Assembly (NCBI RefSeq): GCF_018882055.1
Contig: NZ_JACVPF010000001.1
Location: 806,001 to 870,000 of the forward strand
Direction of reading: 5' to 3'
Source of the DNA: Polynucleobacter sp. es-MAR-4
GTDB taxonomy: Bacteria; Pseudomonadota; Gammaproteobacteria; Burkholderiales; Burkholderiaceae
DNA: 64,000 bases
In this document: positions 3,813 to 37,160 of the stretch, in pieces
Layout of the letters: each line of letters begins with the position of its first letter
Numbering within the stretch: position 1 is the first letter of the stretch
The notes under the pieces: model-generated
Seen by the model: the letters and a program-made list of their open reading frames with translations, nothing else
The model's database searches: none
Told to the model about the DNA's origin: nothing
Made by a program: the position numbers and the translations under genes

Positions 3813-4571
3813 ATGAATTACACCAACTCAGATGTCCCAGGTAGCAAATGCTCAGTCTGCGTACTGGGTCAGTTTTGCCTGCCAGTAGGAATCAGTTCAA
3901 GCGATATTGCCAAGATCGATACCCTCGTAAAAGACCGTGTCCACCTACAAAAAGGTGAGAGCTTATATCGTCATGGCGACCCACTTTCCGCAGTGTACAG
4001 CGTCCGCTTTGGCACCCTCAAGACTGAATACGGCCTTGAAGATGGGCGTCAACAAGTGATTGGCTTTCACCTTCCCGGCGAGATACTGGGGCTTGATGGC
4101 ATTGGCGAAGGCAGCTATCAATCCGAAGCGATTGCGCTTGAAGAGAGTGAAGTCTGCATTATTCGCTATGAAGCATTTGAGGATTTAGCGCGCCAAATTC
4201 CAGTACTACAAAAGCAGTTCCACCGCATTCTGAGCCGTGAGATTACTCAAGATCAACGTCACCTACTGTCATTAGGCAGCTTGCGTGCTGAAGAGCGTTT
4301 AGCAGCATTCTTATTGAATCTTTCTCAACGCCTAGCAGCTCGTGGCTACCAAAATAATGAATTTGATTTACGCATGAGTCGCGTGGAGATTGGTAGCTAT
4401 CTGGGTATTCAGATTGAAACTGTGAGCCGCATGCTCTCACGCTTTGCTGAATCAGGATTGATTCAAATTAAGCAACGTCATATCAAGCTCATTGATATGG
4501 ATGGTCTTTATGAATTAGCTAGCATCCCCAACCCAGACCGCACACTTCAGATCAAGCCTGTTAGCGCTTAA
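3813..4571 (+). CDS. fnr: FNR-type oxygen-sensing transcription regulator
   Basis: A 252-residue Crp/Fnr regulator with all hallmarks of a true FNR. Cys13, Cys16 and Cys22 (C-x2-C-x5-C) plus Cys115 are positioned to bind the oxygen-labile 4Fe-4S cluster. A cyclic-nucleotide-like beta-roll spans ~30-120, a dimer helix follows, and a C-terminal helix-turn-helix (~190-212) carries the recognition pattern E..SR (ETVSR), which reads TTGAT-N4-ATCAA sites. Two perfect sites of this type are in the window (9845-9858 and 36325-36338). The gene converges with the cco operon end. It should activate cbb3 oxidase when oxygen is low. Confidence 0.95.
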   Translation: MNYTNSDVPGSKCSVCVLGQFCLPVGISSSDIAKIDTLVKDRVHLQKGESLYRHGDPLSAVYSVRFGTLKTEYGLEDGRQQVIGFHLPGEILGLDGIGEGSYQSEAIALEESEVCIIRYEAFEDLARQIPVLQKQFHRILSREITQDQRHLLSLGSLRAEERLAAFLLNLSQRLAARGYQNNEFDLRMSRVEIGSYLGIQIETVSRMLSRFAESGLIQIKQRHIKLIDMDGLYELASIPNPDRTLQIKPVSA

Positions 4572-9816: not shown

Positions 9817-9858
9817 ATTATCAAAGTAAGCCTAAGGGGGCGTTTTGATCTATATCAA
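9817..9858 (-). promoter_or_regulatory. FNR box and -10 element of the ccoN promoter
   Basis: TTGATCTATATCAA at 9845-9858 is a perfect FNR palindrome (TTGAT-N4-ATCAA). On the minus strand, 22 bases after it, GATAAT occupies 9817-9822. If this is the -10 hexamer, the box is centred at -41.5, the classic class II position for FNR activation, and transcription would start near 9810. The site is 83 bases from the ccoN start. Confidence 0.9.
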
Positions 9859-35043: not shown

Positions 35044-35517
35044 CTAAATCTGTGTATTTTTAGAGTTGGTCCAATATTTCTGCATCTCAATAAATAGAAA
35101 TGAAGCGGACCAAGTGATCAGAATGAAGCCAGTCAAGGCTTCCACTCCAGTCAAATAACGTAAATAGCCTTGCGCCACAATCTCACCGTAACCCAGAGTG
35201 GTAAAGGTCACGAACGACAAATAAGCACAATCTAGCAATATTCCATGACCAGAGAGGTTGCCAACAAGCTCACCCATCATTGGAAATTGCAAAGTAAAGA
35301 AATAACCCAGGGCAAATAGCCAGATCTCAATGACGTGTGCCATGAAGATGGCGCCAACACCTATCAAGACCCGAAAACGGGGTGCAATATGCGCCAATTT
35401 TGGCAATAACTTATCCAACTGGAAAAGAGCTTCGTAATGAAGCAGGATCGCAAGAAGAGCTAGAGATCCATTGATGGTGAAGGCAGTAATCAGCAGCATA
35501 AATAAATTATCCCCCAT
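35044..35517 (-). CDS. Two-TM potassium channel-like protein
   Basis: A 157-residue membrane protein. Four hydrophobic segments are visible, with a pore loop and selectivity filter SFVTFTTLGYGEIV (TxGYG) near residue 110 and a following pore helix. It resembles ion_trans_2 family channels. The ATG at 35517 is at the edge of a perfect hairpin; an ATG at 35499, with GGGGGA about ten bases upstream, is an alternative start. It is the third gene of the FNR-boxed operon and follows the eRF1-like gene by 19 bases. Confidence 0.85.
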   Translation of the reverse strand: MGDNLFMLLITAFTINGSLALLAILLHYEALFQLDKLLPKLAHIAPRFRVLIGVGAIFMAHVIEIWLFALGYFFTLQFPMMGELVGNLSGHGILLDCAYLSFVTFTTLGYGEIVAQGYLRYLTGVEALTGFILITWSASFLFIEMQKYWTNSKNTQI

Positions 35518-35530
35518 TTTCAGGGGGATA
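35508..35530 (-). promoter_or_regulatory. Hairpin over translation start of the channel gene
   Basis: Arms 35508-35515 and 35523-35530 (TATCCCCC and GGGGGATA on either strand) form a perfect 8-bp stem with a 7-base loop. On the transcribed minus strand, the 3' arm holds the last base of the first ATG and a GGGGGA that could serve as ribosome site for the second ATG. There is no T run after the stem, so it is not a typical terminator. It may control channel translation. Confidence 0.5.
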
Positions 35531-35536
35531 AATATA

Positions 35537-35941
35537 TTAACCAGTAATGACGGTATCGCCTTTTAAAGCATCTACTCTAGCAAAATACTTTTTAGCATAA
35601 GCCAGCAACTGTCCATCAGTAGGATGATCAACAGTCTCAATACCAACAACTTTTTCAGCAATGTTGTGATCATGCTTAGTAGCATGCTTCATTAAATCTA
35701 ATTTTGCAGAGCCAGGCCCAACAATCAAAATCTCTTTAGATTCCATCACAGCTTGAATAACTTCATGCAGATAATGTTGATCTGGTTCAGCGCGTGCGCC
35801 ACTGACGGAGCCACTTTTGTGATGCACGTTTTTATGGGTAGATCTAGTCTTGATGACTTCGCTCTCACTAGCGGTGGGATTGAAATAAATAACGTGTGCT
35901 TCTTGATGATCAATCCAAATAACAGCGTGATTAAATGACAT
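35537..35941 (-). CDS. eRF1-domain-3-like 'translational machinery' protein
   Basis: A 134-residue protein with an L7Ae/eRF1-domain-3-like pattern: HAVIWIDHQEAHVIYF at the start, then EILIVGPGSAKLDLMKHATKHD and VGIETVDHPTDGQLLAYAKKYF. Such proteins are annotated as translational machinery or host-attachment proteins in Burkholderiales; no function is proven. A ribosome role is an inference from the fold. It is the second gene after an FNR box, between DUF1488 and a channel gene. The start has AGAGAAG upstream. Confidence 0.75.
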   Translation of the reverse strand: MSFNHAVIWIDHQEAHVIYFNPTASESEVIKTRSTHKNVHHKSGSVSGARAEPDQHYLHEVIQAVMESKEILIVGPGSAKLDLMKHATKHDHNIAEKVVGIETVDHPTDGQLLAYAKKYFARVDALKGDTVITG

Positions 35942-35990
35942 ATCTTCTCTTTCTAATTAAAAAACAGGGTACTAAATACGGTTGAAATGA

Positions 35991-36257
35991 TTAATCTAAA
36001 ACTAGATCGTGACTGAATAAATGCACAGCACCATCCACAGCATGACCATTCAATATCTTTTGCTCAGCAATCGAGAGTAACTTCAGCTGATGATTTTTAA
36101 ACAATTGCAAAGCATTTGTCTCAACAGCATCAGGATCTAAGTCCTGTAGGGCTTCATAACTAAAGCTGCATTTAAGGGGCTTACCATCTAGCGTTGCCGG
36201 ATAAGAGACATCGCCATTCTCTAAAACGGATGCAGGACCAACAAATTCAAGCTTCAT
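35991..36257 (-). CDS. DUF1488 family protein
   Basis: An 88-residue protein that fits DUF1488: a beta start with GDVSYPATLDGKPLKCSFSYEALQDL, then a helix (NALQLFKNHQLKLLSIAEQKIL) and a strand near the end. The function is unknown. It is the first gene after the perfect FNR box at 36325-36338, about 70 bases away, and begins a leftward three-gene group (49 and 19 base gaps). Confidence 0.8.
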   Translation of the reverse strand: MKLEFVGPASVLENGDVSYPATLDGKPLKCSFSYEALQDLDPDAVETNALQLFKNHQLKLLSIAEQKILNGHAVDGAVHLFSHDLVLD

Positions 36258-36292
36258 GGGGGACTCACTTTATTAAAAATAGTCAAATTAAT

Positions 36293-36338
36293 CTAATAGT
36301 TTGACCCTAATGGACAAAGTGTACTTGATATATATCAA
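36293..36338 (-). promoter_or_regulatory. Second perfect FNR box, promoter of DUF1488 operon
   Basis: TTGATATATATCAA at 36325-36338 is a full FNR palindrome. On the minus strand, TATTAG at 36293-36298 is a possible -10, which would put the box centre near -45, slightly off the ideal -41.5. The site lies in the 96-base gap upstream of the DUF1488 gene and downstream of the spermidine-synthase-like gene's stop. Confidence 0.8.
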
Positions 36339-36353: not shown

Positions 36354-37160
36354 CTAGCGCGAATCGAGTTTTCGTTGGGACAAAAAGTTCTGAGTGGTTC
36401 TGGCCAGATGAATATCATGAACTTTAGTTAACGCGGAAGATCTCCTCAAGAGATCCTCAGATGGGGTATTCAGACTTGAATCTTTACTCACAAATAGAAT
36501 CTGGTTCATTCGATCGTCTTCCACCACCAATACGGATGGATGATCAAAGACTCGATCAATTCGCTCTTGATAGACCTGATTCAGCCCTGCCGCACCAGAG
36601 AAGTTAATCACCAAAACACCATCTGGGTTTAAGCACTCTAGGCAACTGGCATAAAAATCCTCACTACAAAGCTGTGCCGCTTGCCCTAGTTTGGTATACC
36701 CATCAACAAGTAATACATCAAATTTTTCTTCAGTATTCCTCAAATAGGCGGCACCATCAGCCTCAAGTACCCTGAAGTGTTCGCTATTTTCAGGGACGTG
36801 AAATTTATCTTTCAGCGCAATCACTTTAGGGTTGTTTTCCAAAACCAAGATAAATGCATTTGGCAAATGATGGTGGCAATACTTTGCAAGAGAGCCCCCA
36901 CCCAAACCAATCATGGCAATGCTCTTGGGGGTTGCATGGAAAAGTAAAAATCCCATCATAGTTTCGGTGTAACTCACTACCAAGCGAATGGGCGCCTGCA
37001 TATCCATCAGGCTTTGAGTAGACTCACTATCGAAATAGAGTGCTTTGAACTTTTTGCTCTCGACGATATAGGGCTCGCCTTGGGTACCGTCAAACCTTTC
37101 TTTTAATTTAGAAAGGCCCTCTTTAAGAGCTTGGATTCCCGTTGATTGGATGAGAGACAT
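36354..37160 (-). CDS. Spermidine synthase-like methyltransferase-fold protein
   Basis: A 268-residue protein with the polyamine synthase / SAM-binding fold. IGLGGGSLAKYCHHHLP is motif I, ILVLENNP gives the acidic motif II, FRVLEADGAAYL and FDVLLVDGYTKLGQ follow (catalytic Asp region). The usual N-terminal beta domain is short. Whether it makes polyamines is unclear: many such orphans have unknown substrates. It is monocistronic. Confidence 0.75.
   Translation of the reverse strand: MSLIQSTGIQALKEGLSKLKERFDGTQGEPYIVESKKFKALYFDSESTQSLMDMQAPIRLVVSYTETMMGFLLFHATPKSIAMIGLGGGSLAKYCHHHLPNAFILVLENNPKVIALKDKFHVPENSEHFRVLEADGAAYLRNTEEKFDVLLVDGYTKLGQAAQLCSEDFYASCLECLNPDGVLVINFSGAAGLNQVYQERIDRVFDHPSVLVVEDDRMNQILFVSKDSSLNTPSEDLLRRSSALTKVHDIHLARTTQNFLSQRKLDSR

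Follow-up and report, generated by a model that had tools for sequence, protein, structure and literature searches.

The low-oxygen switch logic of a three-gene locus in Polynucleobacter appears to be of the FNR type and to belong to its eRF1-like gene, a reading that is well supported by comparison with related loci; that the protein acts at the ribosome we infer from its predicted fold. We analyzed a window of 64,000 nucleotides from Polynucleobacter sp. es-MAR-4, in which a TTGAT-N4-ATCAA palindrome, the motif of FNR-regulated promoters, stands ahead of three leftward genes for a DUF1488 protein, an eRF1-like protein, and a potassium channel-like protein (Table 1). The perfect match of the palindrome and the three reading frames, separated by 49 and 19 bases as first delimited, agree with a preliminary description of this DNA. 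A spermidine-synthase-like gene (36354-37160), also leftward, ends 15 bases short of the box.

Table 1. Features of the window that bear on the locus (positions are those of the window)
Feature	Position	Strand	Remarks
fnr	3813..4571	+	Probable reader of the box; Fe-S-type cysteines, E..SR helix; Pfam Crp/Fnr domains
Second perfect box	9845..9858	.	5' of ccoN; GATAAT 22 bases downstream; internal yardstick
Pore-type K+ channel-like protein, TLGYG filter	35044..35499	-	PF07885 E 5.2e-9; KirBac3.1 pore E 0.0014
Hairpin TTATCCCCC-TGAAAAT-GGGGGATAA	35507..35531	-	Between eRF1-like stop and channel start
Predicted stand-alone eRF1/Pelota/Balon middle-domain protein (RNase H fold)	35537..35941	-	134 aa, without GGQ
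DUF1488 protein	35991..36257	-	88 aa; PF07369 E 1e-7, above cut-off
Putative -10 hexamer CAAACT	36298..36303	-	21 bases past box; 3/6 match to TATAAT
FNR-type palindrome TTGATATATATCAA	36325..36338	.	0 mismatches; centre 74 bases 5' of DUF1488 start

The palindrome in relatives

To compare promoters, we took 80 loci coding an eRF1-like relative (the best 80 of 292) and scanned 250 bases 5' of the eRF1-like gene, or of DUF1488 where DUF1488 leads; 79 loci were scored, and one (L087) was left out because its upstream stretch was too short. Within this best-80 set, exact TTGAY-N4-RTCAA boxes were found in 44/79 loci versus 0.07 in dinucleotide shuffles, and boxes with at most one mismatch in 56/79 versus 2.3, counts that are not independent, as many of the Polynucleobacter loci are close kin. 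The highest of 100 shuffles reached 6 for exact and one-mismatch boxes together. Three downstream control offsets gave an exact box in 1/80, 0/78, and 0/75 loci. Ahead of other genes of the same loci, exact boxes that did not overlap this promoter were seen in 5 of 359 cases; with overlapping stretches kept, the figure was 21/392, mostly neighbors sharing one intergenic box.

The exact box precedes DUF1488 in 15 of the 16 DUF1488-first relatives (L054 is without it), and the N4 spacer differs between species while the arms of the palindrome are constant. Thirteen loci with an exact box fall outside the Polynucleobacter clades, including members of the Oxalobacteraceae, Comamonadaceae, and Rhodocyclaceae and two alphaproteobacterial bins. 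The family itself is sparse, being present in 56/399 sampled genomes of the order and 14/398 of the phylum (our own genome included). Loci from these order and phylum samples had an exact box in 17/60 cases and a box within one mismatch in 21/60, a count that pools two samples with a few genomes represented twice and scores our own genome as a miss, its box standing before DUF1488. The low rate of 17/60 arises because many loci of the order-wide sample belong to an eRF1-like subfamily whose proteins start with MSH and which is mostly without a box. By these comparisons the box follows the eRF1-like gene across differing neighbors and gene orders. Conservation of both box and gene order in relatives had been proposed as a check; the box is conserved, and the three-gene order is found only within one clade, which includes named Polynucleobacter strains such as MG-27-Goln-C1 (L059).

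In Bradyrhizobium, the eRF1-like family is matched in 42 of 80 genomes. Thirty loci drawn from these 42, mostly best matches, had an exact box in 24 cases, a proportion that favors close relatives; the boxes lie 90-138 bases upstream, mostly at about 100. TTGACCTGCGTCAA occurs exactly in five of the loci, and in two of them (L189, L193), counted from an in-frame GTG farther upstream, it starts at -38. Plasmid-borne relatives are annotated as "hypothetical protein" or are unnamed; one match (G864, 394835-395203) has the coordinates of the match on the B. septentrionale plasmid NZ_CP088284.1.

Published data exist for a B. diazoefficiens gene, bll4412, annotated "translational machinery protein." According to Table 2 of PMC9104804, its expression changes -20.7-fold in a fixK2 deletion and its box, TTGACCTGCGTCAA, is printed at -38; the mutants used exist in this species (PMC9104804). 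At 0.5% oxygen, its protein rises by a log2 fold change of 2.6 and its transcript 6.6-fold, and the 2019 table gives it no direct-target mark (PMC6515984). From box and position, bll4412 is a probable orthologue of the Polynucleobacter eRF1-like gene. It has the TTGACCTGCGTCAA box that members of the family in its genus carry, and it is induced under microoxia and FixK2-dependent; it differs from the Polynucleobacter case in that its reader is FixK2 rather than FNR and in being published as a single gene. Together with the box comparison, these published results for bll4412 strongly support the FNR-type low-oxygen control that had been suggested from the window.

No title or abstract among the literature matches listed, most subscription titles lying outside their scope, tied the single-domain eRF1-like family to FNR, and none among them tied DUF1488 plus an eRF1-like gene to FNR. 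The available portions of PMC4999443 and PMC5934665 name no target of the eRF1-like family.

Hairpin and channel

The last gene codes for a predicted two-transmembrane pore-type channel: its pore domain carries a T-x-G-Y-G filter, and its Ion_trans_2 match (PF07885, 5.2e-9) is above the Pfam cut-off. This identity stands as first described; the start given at 35517 is probably wrong. That ATG forms part of a conserved hairpin, and 3/16 relatives either have it in another frame (L061, L066) or lack it (L063); hence the channel probably starts at the second ATG, 35499. The hairpin folds at -15.3 kcal/mol (z -3.05, 0/200 shuffles as low), and 17 of the 18 aligned sequences have it, the window included (L054 is without it). 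All 119 of 119 alignment cells are paired, with a single two-sided change among them, a result that shows conservation but not covariation. In 15/16 relatives, GGGGGA precedes the second ATG by 9-11 bases (10 in L063; L067 is without it), and the 3' arm of the hairpin holds the likely ribosome-binding site of the channel. With GGGGGA inside it, the hairpin could mask this site until opened by a ribosome finishing the eRF1-like gene.

A different reading, which we find quite plausible if somewhat short of an even chance, holds that DUF1488 and the eRF1-like gene make up the low-oxygen unit, that the channel is a passenger, and that the hairpin ends or thins transcription before it. A channel relative is present in 17 of the 80 loci, all in one Polynucleobacter clade (the 16 DUF1488-first loci and L067), and was not found in the other 63. 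Eight further Polynucleobacter genomes have the channel without an intact eRF1-like gene, and a search of 250 upstream bases found a box with at most one mismatch at only 2 of these 8 loci, a count on which we rejected the FNR box as the channel's own. The hairpin, moreover, scores as terminator-like. Against the passenger reading, however, the T-tract behind the hairpin is broken (TTTATTT), the channel keeps its place in all 17 loci (16 with DUF1488, one without), and the second ATG is held at 35-39 bases past the eRF1-like stop in 16 relatives.

Two kinds of channel locus were also noted, one on each side of this question. In genome G031 (L223), an intact channel gene is preceded by a mere remnant of the C-terminal part of the eRF1-like gene; decay of the operon seems to have begun at its front and spared the channel, which favors the passenger reading. 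A Kv-like channel gene (PF00520) directly follows the pore gene in L058 (5906-6505) and L063 (5930-6745), which speaks against a passenger; L062 has a similar ORF.

The suggestion that the operon joins its eRF1-like protein to ion flux is weakly supported: among the 80 loci the channel is confined to one clade, elsewhere it is retained in the absence of an intact eRF1-like gene, and it sits behind a terminator-like hairpin that may sequester its start. By its distribution, the channel is the weakest member of the locus, a late or loose addition to the eRF1-like/DUF1488 unit.

The eRF1-like and DUF1488 proteins

The middle protein had been described as resembling eRF1 domain 3 or L7Ae. This assignment is ruled out by Pfam, profile, and model matches, all of which point to domain 2 instead. 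The only Pfam match of the protein is eRF1_2, weak at 0.017 and below the cut-off; over 10 family members, eRF1_2 was matched by 7, with a best E of 0.0019. A family profile searched against the PDB reached Pelota (E 0.0013). An AlphaFold2 model built from 46 sequences (pLDDT 78, pTM 0.71) retrieved archaeal aRF1 (E 1.2e-6), eRF1, Pelota, and Balon in a structure search, and fold comparison aligned it with the middle domain of Pelota (Z 12.8) and of mycobacterial Balon (8v9l; Z 11.4). GGQ, the mark of aeRF1, is absent both from the protein and from the consensus of the 46 aligned sequences, and its loop is replaced by a His/Gly-rich stretch in which residues 40-48 are modeled at pLDDT below 50. 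By sequence and model, the protein is a stand-alone and probably non-hydrolytic core.

Two known groups offer points of comparison. Balon is a three-domain ribosome hibernation factor, and mycobacterial Balon genes are activated by hypoxia (PMC10901736). It shares with the eRF1-like protein the middle-domain fold typical of aeRF1 proteins (the Z of 11.4 above), the lack of GGQ, and a link to stress, and it differs in having three domains and about 360 residues in solved chains, whereas the eRF1-like protein corresponds to the middle domain alone: in its 134 residues there is neither an N-terminal decoding-centre domain nor a C-terminal EF-Tu-binding domain. According to the accessible text, the Balon study removed sequences shorter than 300 aa (PMC10901736). 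Core-only baeRF-1 families have a single RNase H-fold core, most without the catalytic glutamine; three such families are described and proposed as non-catalytic translation regulators, and the terms oxygen, FNR, hypoxia, and DUF1488 are absent from the available text (PMC6514570, Burroughs and Aravind 2019). The eRF1-like protein likewise consists of an RNase H-fold core without flanking domains. It differs in that no baeRF model matched its family: none was among the 8 Pfam families matched by the 10 members, the baeRF comparison being by Pfam only. In B. diazoefficiens, the "host attachment protein" bll4645 is presumably a member of another core-only eRF1-like family, and two such families may lie within one FixK2 regulon. 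This gene is also FixK2-dependent and has a TTGATCGGGATCAA box (Table 2, PMC9104804).

The preliminary description called the protein possibly ribosome-associated, and the fold bears this out to the level of fold and no further. Ribosome binding is not given, because domains 1 and 3, through which Balon contacts the decoding centre and EF-Tu, are absent. A role on ribosomes is our best guess from the fold and the company of hibernation factors, and we would give it an even chance at most. The protein might instead work away from ribosomes within a genuine low-oxygen module, its RNase H-fold core reused for binding or signaling; we consider this possible but probably wrong. Such reuse is in keeping with the presence of the middle domain alone, with the poorly modeled His/Gly-rich loop in place of the GGQ region, and with unrelated RNase H-like folds (sugar kinase, ROK repressor, RuvC) at Z 7.4-8.8 in the same fold list. 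It sits less well with rows 1-31 of that list, where nothing but eRF1, Pelota, and Balon occurs (Z 9.1-12.8) before an unrelated fold enters at rank 32 with Z 8.8, and with a sequence profile that reaches Pelota by itself.

The neighbors of the eRF1-like genes do not point to translation. Among 144 proteins from 40 loci, the commonest family had 4 members; these gene calls take the longest ORF and are poor in GC-rich loci. When 144 of the 149 neighbors chosen at these 40 loci were scanned against Pfam, S30AE/HPF was absent among the 25 of 153 families listed, and the one S30AE gene of our own genome lies about 235 kb off on the same contig; within this scope, a link to HPF/RaiA was rejected.

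The first gene of the operon is a DUF1488 member by its PF07369 match above the gathering score and by a predicted fold that matches 2gpi, itself a DUF1488 structure; a sequence search for solved relatives found none. DUF1488 lies 5' of the eRF1-like gene in 16 of the 80 loci and 3' of it, with a 4-base overlap, in 7/80. The two arrangements fall in separate clades of the eRF1-like tree (18 rows, 100/98; 21 rows, 100/99), so the pairing is seen in both clades, in opposite orders. DUF1488 genes elsewhere in the order showed no enrichment of boxes (1/13 within one mismatch), and a general link between DUF1488 and FNR was rejected. In five Polynucleobacter loci where DUF1488 is apart from the eRF1-like gene, three have degenerate boxes with 1-2 mismatches, at 41-60 bases. 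The DUF1488 protein BCAM0277 is a member of the low-oxygen-activated (lxa) locus of Burkholderia cenocepacia (PMC6127331), and BCAM1480, another DUF1488 protein, is listed as co-regulated (PMC4981469). The lxa locus thus shares a DUF1488 gene with the present operon and differs in being large, with universal stress proteins; the available parts of both papers do not name an eRF1-like protein or channel in it (PMC6127331, PMC4981469). Separately, many eRF1-first Polynucleobacter loci have a conserved orphan family of 80-90 aa, DGLPGHDYFLDAVNHIDEAV, after the eRF1-like gene or its DUF1488; one member (L100:5676-5945) had no Pfam match.

Promoter, regulator, and proposed mechanism

A candidate -10 hexamer follows the box. 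In all 15 boxed DUF1488-first loci it lies 21 bases past the box, with A as its second base and T as its sixth. A hexamer with the same A2 and T6 is found in Bradyrhizobium at 22 bases in 16/24 loci and at 21 in 5, and among 13 other loci at 22 bases in 6 and at 21 in 4; in the eRF1-first Polynucleobacter clade, the conserved hexamer is not at the 21-22 base spacing. As a -10 element the window's hexamer is weak, and a sigma-70 consensus scan of the locus listed no promoter near 36298-36303. Class II activator promoters, in which the activator site is centered near -41.5, have such a gap of 21-22 bases between box and -10 element, and the conserved hexamer suggests a putative promoter of this class. 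A published Fnr site in Herbaspirillum is centered at -42 (PMC5934665).

The genome encodes an FNR with Fe-S-type cysteines, the probable reader of the box, and the preliminary description was right that an intact fnr gene is present in the window. Read by eye, its product has the N-terminal stretch KCSVCVLGQFC and an E-T-V-S-R helix; the roles of the cysteines and of the E..SR helix in FNR are known. A motif scan also confirmed that the window holds a single further perfect site, at ccoN. Two TTGAY-N4-RTCAA sites compare with 0.31 expected, and at least two occurred in 5/100 shuffles; on the window alone, this excess is only mildly unusual. The whole genome has 14 sites versus 2 for the reversed pattern. 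Its perfect boxes precede ccoN, an OmpW-like gene, a cytochrome c pair, and the DUF1488 operon, and several others lie within ORFs (the names OmpW-like, HemN-like, rhodanese-like, membrane-protein, and cytochrome c were assigned by eye). Two of the perfect boxes (L034, L035; contig C6, 104289-104374) are 72 bases apart, 5' of the OmpW-like gene, and follow a HemN-like gene at its 3' end.

Another CRP/FNR protein might read the box in response to a signal other than oxygen itself. A second such protein, with an E-T-I-S-R helix, is encoded in this genome (L240:1480-2196, on contig C2 of about 349 kb), and at a distance of about 1.2 kb from the domain match of this protein there is a perfect box (L029), flanked by a rhodanese-like gene and one for a membrane protein. 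We consider this reading quite unlikely, however, since no more than two cysteines occur in the N-terminal stretch of that second protein and since the perfect boxes precede ccoN, the OmpW-like gene, and the cytochrome c pair, an oxygen-type set; cco and ompW are classic FNR targets. Lastly, a chance match at 36325-36338, to which the 5/100 shuffles alone would lend some color, is so improbable as to be dismissed, given the 15/16 DUF1488-first relatives with their varying spacers, the boxes ahead of eRF1-like genes in other genera and the Alphaproteobacteria, and the 5/359 rate ahead of other genes.

The reading we prefer remains an FNR-type low-oxygen module. At falling oxygen levels, binding of FNR, or of a closely related CRP/FNR protein, to the palindrome would turn on the class II-type promoter, and DUF1488, the eRF1-like gene, and probably part of the channel gene would be transcribed. 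The eRF1-like protein would most likely sit in the ribosome at the peptidyl-transferase end of the A site, or close to it, where it could dampen translation or protect idle ribosomes with DUF1488 as its partner. Translation of the channel would probably be coupled through the hairpin to that of the eRF1-like gene, or transcription would be thinned there. The box, spacing, fold, pairing, and hairpin of this scheme are supported by the comparisons, and we infer from there the identity of the regulator, ribosome binding, the DUF1488 partnership, the coupling, and the role of the channel. Taken whole, a module with a class II promoter, a ribosome-directed Pelota/Balon-like core, a DUF1488 partner, and a hairpin-linked channel seems to us slightly favored. 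The earlier interpretation is thus kept for oxygen control, rests on fold for its ribosome link, is weak for ion flux, and is corrected for domain 3.

A bolder form of this proposal, which we regard as doubtful, is a recurrent, oxygen-triggered single-domain hibernation factor, under FNR in Betaproteobacteria and FixK2 in Bradyrhizobium, that plugs the peptidyl-transferase centre of idle ribosomes, with DUF1488 as its dedicated partner and, in Polynucleobacter, a hairpin-coupled K+ channel. Most of what is known about ribosome hibernation factors comes from starvation and cold. If the proposal were true, the oxygen sensors of Proteobacteria would be tied to the state of the ribosome through FNR/FixK-type control, and the eRF1-like protein would show the Pelota/Balon fold in minimal form. 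DUF1488 and the "translational machinery protein," both orphan families so far, would gain a shared and testable role.
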